From NCBI GenBank assembly GCA_937951625.1, contig CALFBP010000002.1, forward strand, positions 1 to 64,000: 64,000 bases of DNA. Direction: 5' to 3'. The DNA comes from an uncultured Thermoguttaceae bacterium (GTDB lineage: Bacteria > Planctomycetota > Planctomycetia > Pirellulales > Thermoguttaceae). The translations under genes and the position numbers were made by a program. The notes under the pieces are model-generated. The model worked only from the letters and a program-made list of their open reading frames with translations. It had not been told where the DNA came from and did no database searches. Of the stretch, positions 38,912-45,129 are shown piece by piece. Every line of letters begins with the position of its first letter. Position 1 is the stretch's first letter.

Positions 38912-38960
38912 TTGACGAAACTAGGGCGGCGGGATATCGTTTATCGTAGATGTACGATAT
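38912..38960 (+). promoter_or_regulatory. arsR promoter with palindromic operator
   Basis: TTGACG (38912-38917) is followed after 17 bases by TATCGT (38935-38940), a plausible -35/-10 pair. ATATCGT (38934-38940) and ACGATAT (38954-38960) form a perfect 7-bp inverted repeat with a 13-base spacer, covering the -10 element. The Shine-Dalgarno AAGGAGG starts at the next base. This arrangement is what is expected of an ArsR/SmtB repressor acting on its own promoter. It is an inference from position and symmetry. Confidence 0.75.
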
Positions 38961-38972
38961 AAGGAGGTGGGG

Positions 38973-39302
38973 ATGAAACGCCAGTTTTGCTCGGAGGGTG
39001 ACGAGAACACCGCCAAACGGCTGGCCGAACCACTGGACGCCGACGAACAGTTGGCGCGGTACGCCAAGGCGCTTGGGCACCCGGCGCGGGTGAAGATCCT
39101 TCGTATGCTCGCCCGGCAGAGAGAGTGCATCTGCGGGGAAATGGTCGCTGAACTGCCGCTGGCGCAATCGACCGTATCGCAGCACTTGAAGATCCTTAAA
39201 TTGGCAGGATTGATTCAGGGGGAGATCGATGGCGCCCGGGTCCGCTATTGCATCACCCCCAAGGCGCTGCGTCGGCTGAGGAGGCTGGTGAGGCAGTTGT
39301 AG
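38973..39302 (+). CDS. arsR: ArsR/SmtB-family metalloregulator
   Basis: The 109-residue winged-helix protein shows the ArsR layout: [20 protein letters not shown], then the recognition helix [18 protein letters not shown] and the wing [10 protein letters not shown]. The pair C52-I-C54 sits where R773 ArsR has its CVC arsenite site, and C6 near the N terminus could provide another ligand. It is very likely a dissociating repressor for As(III) or a related metalloid. The ATG at 38973 follows AAGGAGG; a GTG two codons upstream is less likely. It heads a run of seven further plus-strand genes. Confidence 0.92.
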
Positions 39303-39391: not shown

Positions 39392-39616
39392 ATGCCGACG
39401 TATGACTATGTGTGTGAGGACTGCGGGAAAGCATTTGGAGTGCATATCACGATGGCTCGGTATACCGAGGGATACAAGGCGAAGTGCCCCGATTGCGGAT
39501 CGGGGAAAACAATCCGTACGTTCACGCCGGTCAATGTGCTTACCTCTCGGGCCAGCAGGGGCGTTCCGTTTGGCGGTTGCGGCCCGGCGGCCGGCCCTGG
39601 CTGCTGCGGTTCATAG
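39392..39616 (+). CDS. FmdB-type zinc-ribbon protein with C-terminal CCG tail
   Basis: The 74-residue product starts MPTYDYVCEDCGKAF and has a second CPDCG pair, so residues 1-45 are an FmdB/CxxC_CxxC_SSSS-type zinc ribbon. The last 20 residues are Gly/Pro-rich and end GPGCCGS, adding a vicinal cysteine pair that ordinary FmdB proteins lack. GGGAGG precedes the ATG. It is the second gene of the arsR operon; the tail suggests metalloid or metal delivery. Ribbon family confidence is high, the function is inference. Confidence 0.85.
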   Translation: MPTYDYVCEDCGKAFGVHITMARYTEGYKAKCPDCGSGKTIRTFTPVNVLTSRASRGVPFGGCGPAAGPGCCGS

Positions 39617-39628
39617 GAGGCAGCTCGA

Positions 39629-40033
39629 ATGGTTTTTCCTTTTCAAACCCCACTCGATAGCGCCGTGGCTCAGGCAGCCAAGGCGCTGGCGCACACCCTT
39701 CAGGCCACGCCGGAATGGGAGGAGTGGCGCAGCGCAGAGGCAGCCTTCGAGGGCGACGCGGAACTCTGCGCTCTGATGGACCGCTATCGCATCCTCGCTG
39801 AGCGGTGGCGAAGTGCCCGAGCAAACGGCAAGCCCCTACCGGGCGAGGACGCCATGGAAGTGGCCGAGGTGGAGGAGAAAATCCGCGGGCACCGGCTCTT
39901 TGCGCGGCGGCAGCGGGCGATCGAGGAGTTGACGGCCTTGTTCTTGGAGACCAACCAGGTCGTGACCGAGGCGCTGGGGATTGACTTCGCCGCCAATGCC
40001 GTTCCTCGAGGCGGAGGAGGGTGCTGTGGCTGA
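39629..40033 (+). CDS. YlbF-family protein with C-terminal CCG tail
   Basis: The 134-residue product is mostly long alpha helices (AVAQAAKALAHTLQATPEWE; IEELTALFLETNQVVTEALG), as in the YlbF/YmcA family of small helical proteins; in Bacillus, family members form a complex with an Fe-S cluster that affects RNase Y. This copy ends RGGGGCCG, a flexible Gly stretch with a vicinal cysteine pair at the extreme C terminus. AGGAGG lies ahead of the ATG. It follows the zinc-ribbon gene by 12 bases and overlaps the next gene by 8. A carrier or scaffold role is inferred. Confidence 0.8.
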   Translation: MVFPFQTPLDSAVAQAAKALAHTLQATPEWEEWRSAEAAFEGDAELCALMDRYRILAERWRSARANGKPLPGEDAMEVAEVEEKIRGHRLFARRQRAIEELTALFLETNQVVTEALGIDFAANAVPRGGGGCCG

Positions 40034-40283
40034 AGCTCTCGACGCGGCGACCAAAGAACTGGTGGGTATCGCCGCCGCGGTCGCCGGCCATTGTCAACCC
40101 TGTTTTGTCTATCACTACAAGCAAGCATTGGCTTTGGGTGTGCCCGTCGCGGCCATCCAGGCGGCCGTGGAACTCGCCCGCGCCGTGCGCGGCGCGGGGG
40201 ATCGGCACATGGACGAGTTCGTCGTACGCCGCATGACTGGTGCGGGAAAAGAAAGCTTGGAGGAAATGAACAACGATGAATAG
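40026..40283 (+). CDS. carboxymuconolactone-decarboxylase-fold (AhpD-like) protein
   Basis: The 85-residue product has the CMD/AhpD core: ELVGIAAAVAGHCQPCFVYH with the redox-type C-x-x-C and downstream helices (GVPVAAIQAAVELARAVRGA). In AhpD the CxxC is a disulfide reductant. The GTG at 40026 is chosen for the GGAGGAGG six bases upstream; it overlaps the YlbF gene, and its own end overlaps the permease ATG. The tight packing suggests stoichiometric expression. The partner may be the thioredoxin-like protein or an organometal substrate. Confidence 0.85.
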   Translation: MAEALDAATKELVGIAAAVAGHCQPCFVYHYKQALALGVPVAAIQAAVELARAVRGAGDRHMDEFVVRRMTGAGKESLEEMNNDE

Positions 40284-41682
40284 GCACGAATCCGGCACCG
40301 GGGCGGGCTCGGTGGAGCTTTCCTCGGCATCGCCAGCTCTGGAGACCCCGGCAGGGGCTGCCTCCCATGCCTCTTTCCGACCCACGGGCACCATGTGGTT
40401 TTACCTGGCGGCCGTGGTCGTCATGTATCTAAGCGCGCTGGTGTATGCTTCCGTAAACGGGTTGTCGCTTTCTTCGCTCTACTGGTATGGTCTGCTCCAG
40501 CCCCCGGGAATCAGCAGCGAAGACGCGCGACTTGCGGAGATCGAAACCCCCCTCTCCTGGAACATCCCCCAGGTAGCCTGGTTCGTGTATATCAAGGGGG
40601 CGGCGGTCCTGGTGGAACTCTTCCAATACTGGGTGATCGGGATGCTGATCGCCGCGGGCCTGATCGTGTTCGTTTCCTGGGAGAAAGTCCGAGCGAAAAT
40701 GGGATTCGGAGGGTTCAAGGCGAATCTTCTGGCAACGATGGCGGGTGCAGTGATCCCGATTTGTTCCTGCGGTGTCGTGCCGGTGTTGGCGGGAATGGTG
40801 GAGGCGGGGATTCCCCTCGCCCCGACCATGGCCTTTCTCATTGCGGCCCCCATGCTCAACGTGCCGACGGTGTTCATGACGGCCGGGGTCTTGGGCTGGC
40901 CGATGGCCATTGCCCGCATCGTGGCCACCTTCGGCATCGCCCTGACGGTGGGAGAAGTGCTTTCCCGCTGGCAGCGGAAACACCGAAGCCCACGCAAGTT
41001 CCTCAAGATTCATGTCCCCCCGCGGCTTTCGCCTGAGATGCAACGCTTTGCATTCCAATTCGGGCTTCTGGCCAGCAAGCATCCCAACGGTGTTCGGGCG
41101 GACCAACTCGGGCCGGATGGTGAACAGAAGCTCGTGCTACTAGAGGAGGCTGGCCTGGTAGAAAGCTCCCCCGCTGGCCTGTGGACGCTCGTGGAAGCCG
41201 AGACCGGACAGATCAAGAGCGTGGGAGCCTGCGCCATTCTTCCGGAGGGAGGCGCCGTGGAGAGAACGCTGGGGCAAAAGTTCGCCGAGATGTTCCGCTT
41301 GGGCCTGCGGCTGTTTATCCAACTGAACGGCTATCTGCTGCTGGCGGTCCTGATCGCCGGCGCGATCAAGGTCCTCTTGCCCACCAAGCTGATCACGGAC
41401 TGGGTCGGCGGGACCGCGCTGAACAGCGTGCTGGTGGCCGCCTTCGTCGCAGTGTTAGGGTATGTTTGCACCTACGTGGAGGTGCCCACCGCACTGGCGC
41501 TGATGAGCAAAGGGATGGGCCCGGGTTCGACGCTGGCCTATTTGCTCGGCGGTCCCGGGCTGTCCCTGCCCTCGATCGCCATGCTGTCCGGCGTGTTCCG
41601 GTCGAGGGTGCTCGTCCTCTACGTAGGCGTATCATTTGTCGGCTGCGTGGTGGCGGGCTACATCTACAATCTGTTCTTTTGA
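40276..41682 (+). CDS. permease of the ArsP/YraQ (DUF318) family
   Basis: The 468-residue membrane protein has about ten hydrophobic segments and the family signature IPICSCGVVPVLAGMVEAGI; the CSCG motif is the expected metal/metalloid-contact site. A second Pro-rich repeat is PTALALMSKGMGPGSTLAYL with GGPGLSLPS. Between residues about 245 and 335 it holds a cytoplasmic insert (LASKHPNGVRADQLGPDGEQ, then VLLEEAGLVESS) that looks like a winged-helix. ArsP proteins export trivalent organoarsenicals; other family members move Cu/Zn. The next genes support an organometal substrate. It overlaps the CMD gene. Confidence 0.85.
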   Translation: MNRHESGTGAGSVELSSASPALETPAGAASHASFRPTGTMWFYLAAVVVMYLSALVYASVNGLSLSSLYWYGLLQPPGISSEDARLAEIETPLSWNIPQVAWFVYIKGAAVLVELFQYWVIGMLIAAGLIVFVSWEKVRAKMGFGGFKANLLATMAGAVIPICSCGVVPVLAGMVEAGIPLAPTMAFLIAAPMLNVPTVFMTAGVLGWPMAIARIVATFGIALTVGEVLSRWQRKHRSPRKFLKIHVPPRLSPEMQRFAFQFGLLASKHPNGVRADQLGPDGEQKLVLLEEAGLVESSPAGLWTLVEAETGQIKSVGACAILPEGGAVERTLGQKFAEMFRLGLRLFIQLNGYLLLAVLIAGAIKVLLPTKLITDWVGGTALNSVLVAAFVAVLGYVCTYVEVPTALALMSKGMGPGSTLAYLLGGPGLSLPSIAMLSGVFRSRVLVLYVGVSFVGCVVAGYIYNLFF

Positions 41683-41706: not shown

Positions 41707-42048
41707 ATGAACGAAGGGAAAACCATCCTTCGGCTGTACTATGTTCCGTTGAGCTTCCCTTGCGGGCCGCAATCTTCTTGCTGCGGTCCGGTCGGGCAGA
41801 GTGACGAGGAGCTGCGCAACTACGTGACTCAACTTAAAACCCACGTGCCTGACGTGGAAGTGCAAACTATCGACGTCTCCCAAAAGCTTGATCCTCACCG
41901 GGACCGAGCAGCGCTGAAGCTGCTGAACAGCTTCGGCGGAATGGCCTGCCCCATCTTCGCCCTCGACGGCGAGGTGCTTTCGATGGGACCCCCTACCATG
42001 TCCGAGCTCATCGAGATGGTGAAGGCCAAACTCCCTGCCCGGGCGTGA
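41707..42048 (+). CDS. thioredoxin-like protein with CGPxxxCCGP motif
   Basis: The 113-residue product begins with a beta strand (KTILRLYYVPLSFPCGPQSS), then CCGPVGQSDEELRNYV. This puts C20 and a vicinal cysteine pair (C25-C26) in the first loop, where thioredoxins have CxxC. Later parts (VEVQTIDVSQKLDPHRD; ACPIFALDGEVLSMGPPTMS) complete a small thioredoxin fold with the cis-Pro-like region CPIF. It may pass a metalloid from the cytoplasm to the permease or the ACR3 pump, or reduce it. It is not a standard ArsC or ArsD, which have different cysteine patterns. Confidence 0.78.
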   Translation: MNEGKTILRLYYVPLSFPCGPQSSCCGPVGQSDEELRNYVTQLKTHVPDVEVQTIDVSQKLDPHRDRAALKLLNSFGGMACPIFALDGEVLSMGPPTMSELIEMVKAKLPARA

Positions 42049-42151
42049 AGGCCGAGGGGGGGAAACATCGCAGCCGCCGAGCGGGTGCTCGCTGCCACCC
42101 TTGCCAGCCCAGGAGTGCGCCATCGTGTTGCTCTAGAGGTGAAGACGAGAA

Positions 42152-43738
42152 ATGGAAGTTGAGAATCGGACGCTGCGTGGTAGTACTCCTGGCGGTTTCC
42201 TTGCGCGTCGGTTGACGGTGGGGGTTGATCCGCCAACACTGGCCGACACCGCCAGTGACCGGGCGCGGTTGGAACGGGCCTTGCACCCTCACCTGGGCGG
42301 GCAGGCTGCTCATTTTACGCTATCCGCGCTCCGCGCCTTGGGCTCGGCTCTGCGCCGGGGCAACTGGCAGGTCACCGTCACCCTGGCCGAGGTGGAAGGC
42401 GCGCCGTGGATCGTCGCGGTGGAGCCCGGCGAGGCGCGCAGCCGTTGCCTGGGCTTGGCTGTGGATGTGGGGACGACGACGGTCTCGATGGAACTGATCG
42501 ACTTAGTCGACGGCCCCAGCCTGGGGACGCGCATGACCTACAACGGCCAACGCGCTTTTGGCGCCGACGTGACCAGCCGGCTAATCCATGCCGAGAAACC
42601 GGGCGGCCTAGCCGAATTGCACGAGGCGGTGGTGACCACCCTCAACGCCCTGATTGACCATTTGACGGACGAAACTGGCACGAGCCGAAACGATATCTGG
42701 GCCGTGGCGTGCGCCGGCAACACGATCATGGCACATCTCCTGCTGGGGCTGGACCCTACGGCCATCCGCCGCGAGCCCTACGTGCCCATCACCACCGTCT
42801 TCCCCAGCGTGCGTGCCGGGGACGTTGGCCTGCGGCTGGCCGACGAAGCGATTCTGTACGCCTTGCCCGCCATCAGCGGCTACCTGGGGGGCGACATCAC
42901 GGCCGGGCTCTTGGCCACCGGCATCGCGGATGAGGAGCCGCTGTCCATCCTGATCGACATCGGCACCAACGGGGAGACGGTGTTGGGCAACCGGGACTGG
43001 CTGATGGCCTGTTCCGGCTCGGCCGGCTCGGCCTTCGAGGGCTGTGGGCTGGAATGGGGCATGAACGCTACCGCGGGCGCGATCGAGCGCGTCTGGGTGG
43101 AGGACGGCAACATCCGCTACCGCACCGTGGGTGGGGAGCGTCCCCGCGGCATCTGCGGCTCGGGACTGATCGAGGCCCTGGGGTGTTTTCTATCCGCCGG
43201 CATCATTGATCGCACGGGAAAAGCCAACTCCGAAGCGCCTGCTGTGCGGCAGGGCGAATATCATCCGGAGATCGTCCTGGCCCCAGCCTCCGAGACGGCC
43301 GTGGGACGCGACATCACGTTGCGCCAGCCGGACATCGAGAATCTGATCCGGGACAAGGCCGCGCTGTATGCCGGCTCGCGGATCCTGCTGGCCAACGTGG
43401 GGTTGAGCTTCGAGGCGGTGGATCGCATCCTCATCGCCGGCAATTTTGGACACGCTTTGGATACCGAGCAGGCCGTGCGTATCGGGCTACTGCCCGACAT
43501 TCCACGCGAAAAGATTCGGTTTATCGGCAATAGCTCCCTGGCTGGGGCGCGGCAGGCGCTGCTCTCTGCCCAGGCCCGGCGACGAGCATTAGAAGTGGCG
43601 AGCGCCGTGACTGCCCTGGAATTGACCGTCGAGCCCCGCTACTTCGACGAATACACGGCGGCGCTCTTTCTGCCACATACGGACGTATCGCTCTTCCCAT
43701 CGGTAGCGGCACAAACCATCGATCAATTCCGCCGGTAG
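42152..43738 (+). CDS. ASKHA-domain protein (DUF4445/RACo-like) lacking the ferredoxin domain
   Basis: The 528-residue product carries an actin-fold ATPase region: phosphate-1 LAVDVGTTTVSMELID, ISGYLGGDITAGLLATG, LIDIGTNGETVLGN, CSGSAGSAFEGCGLEWGM and IAGNFGHALDTEQAVRIGLL. Relatives reactivate corrinoid proteins by ATP-driven reduction and normally begin with a 2Fe-2S domain. Here the frame starts at an ATG at 42152 within the linker domain, and an in-frame TAG lies 18 bases upstream, so the ferredoxin part is truly absent. A stand-alone ferredoxin or another reductant must serve it, if it is active. It follows the thioredoxin-like gene by 103 bases. Confidence 0.85.
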   Translation: MEVENRTLRGSTPGGFLARRLTVGVDPPTLADTASDRARLERALHPHLGGQAAHFTLSALRALGSALRRGNWQVTVTLAEVEGAPWIVAVEPGEARSRCLGLAVDVGTTTVSMELIDLVDGPSLGTRMTYNGQRAFGADVTSRLIHAEKPGGLAELHEAVVTTLNALIDHLTDETGTSRNDIWAVACAGNTIMAHLLLGLDPTAIRREPYVPITTVFPSVRAGDVGLRLADEAILYALPAISGYLGGDITAGLLATGIADEEPLSILIDIGTNGETVLGNRDWLMACSGSAGSAFEGCGLEWGMNATAGAIERVWVEDGNIRYRTVGGERPRGICGSGLIEALGCFLSAGIIDRTGKANSEAPAVRQGEYHPEIVLAPASETAVGRDITLRQPDIENLIRDKAALYAGSRILLANVGLSFEAVDRILIAGNFGHALDTEQAVRIGLLPDIPREKIRFIGNSSLAGARQALLSAQARRRALEVASAVTALELTVEPRYFDEYTAALFLPHTDVSLFPSVAAQTIDQFRR

Positions 43739-44046: not shown

Positions 44047-45129
44047 ATGACCGACAGCACGTTGAAAAAATTGTCATTCCTCGACCGTTACCTGACCCTC
44101 TGGATTTTTCTGGCAATGGCCTTCGGCGTGGCGCTGGGATACCTTGTGCCGCCGGTGGCGCAGTTCATTGACGGCCTGAGGTTCGGGGAGACCACGAGCA
44201 TCCCGATCGCCATCGGGCTGATTTTGATGATGTACCCGCCTTTGGCGAAGGTCCGTTACGAAGAGTCCGGCAGGGTCTTGAGCGAGAAGAAACTTTTGGG
44301 CTTCTCGCTGTTGATGAACTGGGTGATCGGCCCGGTCTTCATGACGGCGTTGGCCATCTTGTTTCTCCACAACTACCCGGAGTACATGGTTGGCGTGATT
44401 CTCGTCGGGCTGGCCCGATGCATCGCCATGGTCATCGTATGGAATGAGCTGGCGGGCGGCGACCGGGAACTTGCCGTGGGGCTAGTGGCCTTCAACGCCG
44501 TGTTCCAGGTGCTGTTTTACGCGATCTACATCTACGTGTTCATCACGTTCCTGTTGAATGCCCTCGGGTTGGTAGAGGGGTTGAACGTTCATGTCTCCAT
44601 CCTGGAGGCCGCCAAAACCGTGTTCATCTACTTGGGGATTCCCTTCCTCGGCGGGCTGATCACGCGTTTTTCGCTCCTCAACTGGAAAGGTCGCCAGTGG
44701 TACGAGTCGGTGTTCATCCCCAAGATCAGCCCCATCACGCTGGTGGCGCTGCTGTTCACGATCGTCGTGATGTTCTCCTTGAAGGGGGACGAGATCATCA
44801 GACGCCCTGGCGACGTGCTCCTCGTGGCCATTCCGCTGGCGATCTACTTCTTCGCCATGTGGTTCTTCGCCTTTTTCGTGGCCGCCAAGTTGGGGGCCGG
44901 ATATGAGAAGACCACGGCCGTCGCCTTCACGGCGGCCAGCAACGATTTTGAGCTGGCAATCGCCGTGGCGGTGGCGATTTTCGGCACCGCATCCGGTCAA
45001 GCCCTGGCCACGGTCGTGGGGCCTCTGTTGGAGGTGCCGGTGCTGATTAGTTTGGTCAATGTCGCCCTGTATTTCCAGAAAAGGTTCTTTCGTCAGCCCG
45101 CGGCACCGGAACCGATGGCAAAGCCATAG
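44047..45129 (+). CDS. arsB: ACR3-family arsenite efflux transporter
   Basis: The 360-residue membrane protein begins [20 protein letters not shown] and has ten predicted hydrophobic segments. Conserved ACR3 blocks are [38 protein letters not shown] (the cysteine in this block is the conserved one needed for As(III) transport) and [20 protein letters not shown]. It pumps arsenite out of the cell. The ATG at 44047 has GGAG ten bases upstream. It is the last gene of the plus-strand metalloid cluster. Confidence 0.95.

Follow-up and report, generated by a model that had tools for sequence, protein, structure and literature searches.

RACo/AcsV-type proteins are known as ATP-driven electron donors, for which the protein's own iron-sulfur cluster is essential. 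The activators of 2-hydroxyacyl-CoA dehydratase and benzoyl-CoA reductase (HgdC and BadFG type) share the ASKHA fold and ATP-driven activation, and have no separate ferredoxin domain, but bind a bridging 4Fe-4S cluster. In the RACo-type system that has been characterised, Co(II) receives an electron from the activator's [2Fe-2S] cluster and, in the case of CoFeSP, the main effect of ATP hydrolysis seems to be that the activator dissociates from its acceptor (PMC6739815). Here, a stretch of 64,000 nucleotides from an uncultured Thermoguttaceae bacterium (contig CALFBP010000002.1; the window) encodes an intact RACo/AcsV-type ASKHA core without the 2Fe-2S domain, within an arsenic operon.

The gene occupies positions 42152..43738 of the + strand as an open reading frame of 528 aa with an ATG start. 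The initial annotation had described an in-frame TAG 18 bases upstream of the ATG; this codon is present at 42134-42136, and a TGA lies nearer still, at 42140-42142 (12 bases). The 150 codons upstream in the same frame contain many stops and no ferredoxin motif. Pfam places RACo_linker at residues 19-95 (59 bits), Raco_middle at 100-259 (178 bits) and RACo_C_ter at 264-518 (306 bits), all above cut-off, and finds no Fer2 domain in the protein, so that the reported loss of the ferredoxin domain is borne out by both the protein and the closed upstream frame. The NCBIfam AcsV model scores 510.9, below its cut-off of 800, which is mostly expected because the ferredoxin domain is missing.

An AlphaFold model, made from an input alignment of the window and locus proteins, has a pLDDT of 89.7 and a pTM of 0.89. 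Over 510 columns it fits RACo 3zyy at 1.5 A (TM 0.93). Among solved proteins, the RACo chains 4c1n and 3zyy are nearest, and the fold alignment gives about 45% identity. Residues 1-13 are disordered and the ordered chain therefore starts where the RACo linker starts. The fold is that of an ASKHA protein, not a deviant Walker P-loop, and ArsA_ATPase is unmatched in Pfam. The ATP-site invariants D105, T108, T109, D248, D269, G271, T272, N273 and E275 are all kept. With the motifs intact and a confident structure model, a decayed gene is ruled out, as the initial annotation had also held.

The distribution of this form was examined in the wider family. The best matches in 60 genomes of related families, and in 392 of the phylum, have 43-47% identity. 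Apart from one (L066), those whose DNA was examined bear a ferredoxin domain, as long as no contig end truncates them. One close relative (L069) was among the matches listed when 84,980 species were scanned with an alignment, a 62-63% identical protein from a Thermoflexales (Chloroflexota) MAG; a single-protein query over genome contigs returned no close relative, and the alignment query alone reached it. L069 also has no ferredoxin domain: its RACo opens with the linker, and a stop lies 24 bases ahead of where the match begins. The two proteins group as a clade (SH-aLRT 100, stem 0.78) in a tree of 131 homologs, and this clade is placed inside the ferredoxin-bearing RACo/AcsV family. The clade has at least two members, two being found among the matches listed. 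No third was seen in the samples, each of partial coverage, of 392 Planctomycetota genomes, 396 genomes of the class of L069, its order and 350 Chloroflexota, nor in a scan of IMG/VR.

The gene context of the clade also differs from that of the family. A CODH/ACS or corrinoid/methyltransferase gene is present in the fetched flank of 49 of the 80 named RACo loci, and all plasmid homologs that were opened adjoin corrinoid genes. None of the 80 loci other than L069 carries an arsenic gene string. Two apparent exceptions were rejected: an ArsA-like match near one RACo (L132) belongs to a CODH/ACS cluster as a separate gene, and an ACR3-like match (L093) lies about 6 kb from the RACo, among redox genes and with no other ars gene. 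The initial annotation had named many ferredoxin-less homologs beside corrinoid genes as the observation that would count against a new use. These were looked for and not found: among about 176 RACo loci checked, L066 is the only one beyond the window and L069 that is ferredoxin-less with upstream DNA present, and its neighbours are mobB and flagellar genes. As the ferredoxin domain, the score cut-off and the gene context all fail, the window protein is an arsenic-linked, ferredoxin-less variant of the RACo core and not an AcsV equivalog.

Both members of the clade retain the ATP-site residues listed above and share changes elsewhere. Position 293 is S in both and P in 129/129 other homologs, position 305 is N or A in the pair and R in 120/129 others, and C298, common to the pair, is found in 3/129 others. 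These three changes fall within one conserved stretch, SAG[P]AFEG..xxGM[R]A, and the signature of the clade is SGSAGSAFEGCGLEWGM. The changes may mark an altered surface for partner binding. A new metal site formed by clade-specific cysteines was considered and rejected, C287 and C335 being common across the family and C298 alone near-specific. This lack of a new specific Cys pair also separates the clade from the HgdC/BadFG-type activators with their bridging cluster, as does the failure of the window core to match their Pfam family.

The surrounding genes run in the order ArsR, FmdB-like, YlbF/HcsL-like, AhpD-like, ArsP, ArsD-like, RACo core and ACR3, all on the + strand. The operon begins with an ArsR/SmtB-type metalloregulator at 38967..39302 (NCBIfam HTH_metalloreg, 75.8 bits, cut-off 55; Pfam HTH_5). 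Immediately 5' of it, at 38912..38961 on the + strand, a sigma-70-like, promoter-like site (TTGACG-17-TATCGT, a consensus match only) runs into an 18-22 bp palindrome, TTTATCGTAGATGTACGATATA, which is likely the ArsR operator. A consensus scan found no other + strand promoter-like site between 38500 and 45438, which fits one ArsR-controlled unit as far as consensus matching goes. The ArsP-type permease (40276..41682; Pfam ArsP_1, 197 bits) and the ACR3 arsenite efflux permease (44047..45129; TIGR00832, 445.7 bits, cut-off 282.8) complete the efflux side. The regulator and both permeases score above curated cut-offs, in agreement with the metalloid operon of the initial annotation. No plausible candidate for a ferredoxin or corrinoid-binding gene adjoins the operon, again as that annotation had stated, and the RACo core is its only ATPase.

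The ArsP-type permease has further features of its own. It carries a mid-protein insertion of about 80-90 residues relative to Pfam ArsP_1 that resembles a soluble domain, and it matches the SaoE and SO_0444 efflux families weakly. The relationship to SaoE recalls the selenocysteine-assisted organometal (SAO) gene sets, but the score is far below the SaoE cut-off and RACo is, to our knowledge, not a component of these sets.

The protein encoded at 41707..42048 (+), called thioredoxin-like in the initial annotation, is best read as ArsD-like. Its top Pfam match is ArsD (E 0.021; 15.6 bits, below the gathering threshold of 27), its AlphaFold model has a pLDDT of 76.6, and Foldseek ranks ArsD 3mwh first (TM ~0.52), with ordinary thioredoxins close behind and ArsD structures at ranks 1, 6 and 11. 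Its cysteines (Cys19, Cys25 and Cys26) form a C-x5-CC trio, as against CC-x4-C in ArsD, and the CGP cysteine alone aligns. No homolog of this gene was found in 392 Planctomycetota genomes (E 1e-6) or in plasmids.

The YlbF-family protein at 39629..40033 (+; Pfam Com_YlbF) resembles HcsL. It matches the NCBIfam HcsL model (NF041416) at 1.2e-11, although its 45.1 bits are below the cut-off of 140, and phmmer gives 4.3e-11 to a haloarchaeal HcsL adjoining arsA. The window protein ends in GGGGCCG and HcsL in GGGCC, and both are encoded in ars gene strings; in haloarchaea hcsL directly follows arsA in arsD-arsA-hcsL-hcsS strings, and the ars operons there have arsA flanked by CC-ended HcsL-like genes. 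Another 35 Planctomycetota genomes have a YlbF/HcsL match, and among the YlbF homologs recovered in 33 fetched neighbourhoods of that phylum none has a CC end or an arsenic neighbour. The FmdB-like zinc-ribbon protein of 74 aa (39392..39616, +; Pfam Zn_ribbon_8, 46 bits) ends in ...GPGCCGS. It was rejected as an HcsS, with which it does not align. The neighbouring FmdB-like and HcsL-like proteins belong to unrelated families, and both end in CC (GCCGS and GGGGCCG), which recalls the haloarchaeal HcsL/HcsS pair. Such CC tails at the C terminus may be common to arsenic operons in general. An AhpD/CMD-like protein with a CxxC motif (39981..40283, +; Pfam CMD, 41.7 bits; TIGR00778 above cut-off) is encoded between the HcsL-like and ArsP-type genes.

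In the Chloroflexota MAG, the RACo core is found on a contig of 3.8 kb. Its neighbours are the C-terminal half of an ArsA (best model ArsA_halo), a YedF/DsrE protein, an LMWP-type arsenate reductase (ArsC) whose gene is frameshifted in the assembly, and a small protein, and a YlbF/HcsL-like gene lies immediately 3' of the RACo. The locus is on short contigs, and the MAG has apparent frameshifts. Another of its contigs has ArsR and a genuine ArsD, followed at the contig end by the N-terminal part of an ArsA, and the two contigs may be parts of one operon. With a contig of this length, linkage of the RACo to ArsD-like, ArsP and ACR3 genes is seen in the window alone, and no CMD, thioredoxin-like or FmdB-like gene is visible on the short contigs at L069. 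Two minor observations concern the same genome. The YedF/DsrE-like protein (877-1302), of a family tied to selenium metabolism, is encoded between ArsA and ArsC. In addition, a small protein encoded upstream of the ArsR-ArsD-ArsA genes (L185; G447:C1371, 2587-3042, - strand) has, in its C-terminal part, a match to the 4Fe-4S domain of the large CoFeSP subunit.

The ferredoxin domain has been lost, the core is intact, its place among arsenic genes recurs in two phyla, and one position that is otherwise constant in the family is altered in both copies. The recurrence in a second phylum makes a role dedicated to arsenic likely, so that the new use suggested in the initial annotation stands in this respect, while the electron-donor scheme attached to it is not supported. 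We tentatively propose, as a reading that falls somewhat short of probable, that the two proteins represent an arsenic-dedicated RACo/AcsV subfamily in which ATP gates binding to, and release from, Cys-rich arsenic carriers. The ancestor shared by the Planctomycetota and Chloroflexota copies would have lost the 2Fe-2S domain and retained the actin-like ATP core. Such a core could still bind and release a partner under ATP control, and no electron transfer by the core itself would be expected. By analogy with the known activators, it would most likely cycle on the Cys-rich arsenic proteins of the operon, the candidate partners being the ArsD-like chaperone and the CC-ended HcsL-like and FmdB-like proteins; given the conserved arsenic neighbours and the CC-ended proteins, this is the most economical proposal. 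The core would help As(III) on its way to ACR3 and ArsP, or the carriers would be kept free. A more specific form, in which the protein is a new actin-fold arsenic ATPase that hands arsenic from CC-ended carriers to ACR3/ArsP in an ATP-gated manner and replaces ArsA in the window organism, is unlikely. If a conserved, arsenic-linked form without a redox centre is confirmed, the ATP cycle of these proteins would be useful apart from electron transfer, and a previously unrecognised ATPase would join arsenic resistance. A search of open-access papers gave none that ties DUF4445/ASKHA proteins to arsenic, and the link may have been noticed before in subscription papers.

Of the alternatives, the one that survives best is a corrinoid activator induced by arsenic. 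Here, the core would reactivate CoFeSP or another corrinoid protein with the help of a separate ferredoxin, and ArsR control would be explained by arsenite stress inactivating corrinoid enzymes. The core is very close to RACo, it falls within the RACo/AcsV homologs in the tree, and both hosts have genes for CoFeSP, corrinoid methyltransferases and CODH/ACS; as both encode CoFeSP, a corrinoid target is a genuine candidate. The window host is a planctomycete MAG of 4.6 Mb (97.9% complete) with three RACo-type genes. The other two bear ferredoxin domains, one within a CODH/ACS cluster (L057) and one adjoining genes for a UroD-type methyltransferase and a LysR regulator (L058). These could supply a ferredoxin acting in trans; they also mean that the host already has two activators with their ferredoxin. 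An earlier impression that the Chloroflexota MAG (G447) is without CoFeSP or other RACos was rejected, since CODH/ACS and another RACo, at a contig end, are present, and genome content is thus no argument against a corrinoid target. However, the neighbours are arsenic carriers and pumps and not corrinoid genes, and the departures from P293 and R305 in near-invariant stretches suggest a changed partner. Taken together, a corrinoid target is possible, if somewhat unlikely.

A second alternative, close to the initial annotation, is an ATP-driven reductase acting in trans, in which a small redox protein supplies electrons for an arsenical, or for the CC disulfides of the operon proteins, and the core gates their flow. 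Uphill electron transfer is driven by RACo-type cores, and the operon encodes an AhpD-like protein with CxxC, a zinc-ribbon or rubredoxin-like Cys4 protein and CC-ended proteins. The RACo core itself, however, has no redox centre, so that a role in reduction goes beyond what the protein retains, and ArsC reduces As(V) with thiol donors and no ATP. The thioredoxin-like or CMD protein had been put forward as the electron donor. This proposal loses weight because the former resembles an arsenic chaperone of the ArsD type, and neither gene, nor the FmdB-like one, is seen on the short contigs at L069. A reductase is quite unlikely.

It is very doubtful that the window core simply takes the place of ArsA, accepting As(III) from the ArsD-like protein and energising ACR3. 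ArsD-like and HcsL-like proteins normally accompany ArsA, which in haloarchaea occurs with HcsL/HcsS, and the RACo core is likewise an ATPase in an ars string with an ArsD-type protein. In the window genome, a true ArsA was not found, the matches being weak and of the ParA/MinD type. On the other hand, ArsA is a P-loop protein and the RACo core an ASKHA protein. L069 carries both in the same gene string, and the core is therefore not simply an ArsA substitute. ACR3 efflux is, moreover, established to work without an ATPase, and the ArsD-like protein does not have the CC-x4-C arrangement. Finally, that the core is a relic carried in the operon by chance, as the ferredoxin-less, long-branched L066 beside mobB and flagellar genes might suggest, is most improbable in view of its intact catalytic residues, its high-confidence fold and the independent recurrence, in a second phylum, of a 63% identical protein by arsenic genes.

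Two other unusual members of the family were encountered. L066 (G411:C97, 4616-6166, - strand) is a ferredoxin-less RACo-type protein of 516 aa, 36% identical and on a very long branch, encoded next to mobB and a flagellar operon. A second RACo homolog of that genome, on a separate contig (L067), has its ferredoxin domain and groups normally in the tree. In a 545-aa RACo-like ORF from another genome (L054; G071:C10), the ferredoxin domain seems to adjoin the ASKHA core almost directly, most of the linker domain being absent.
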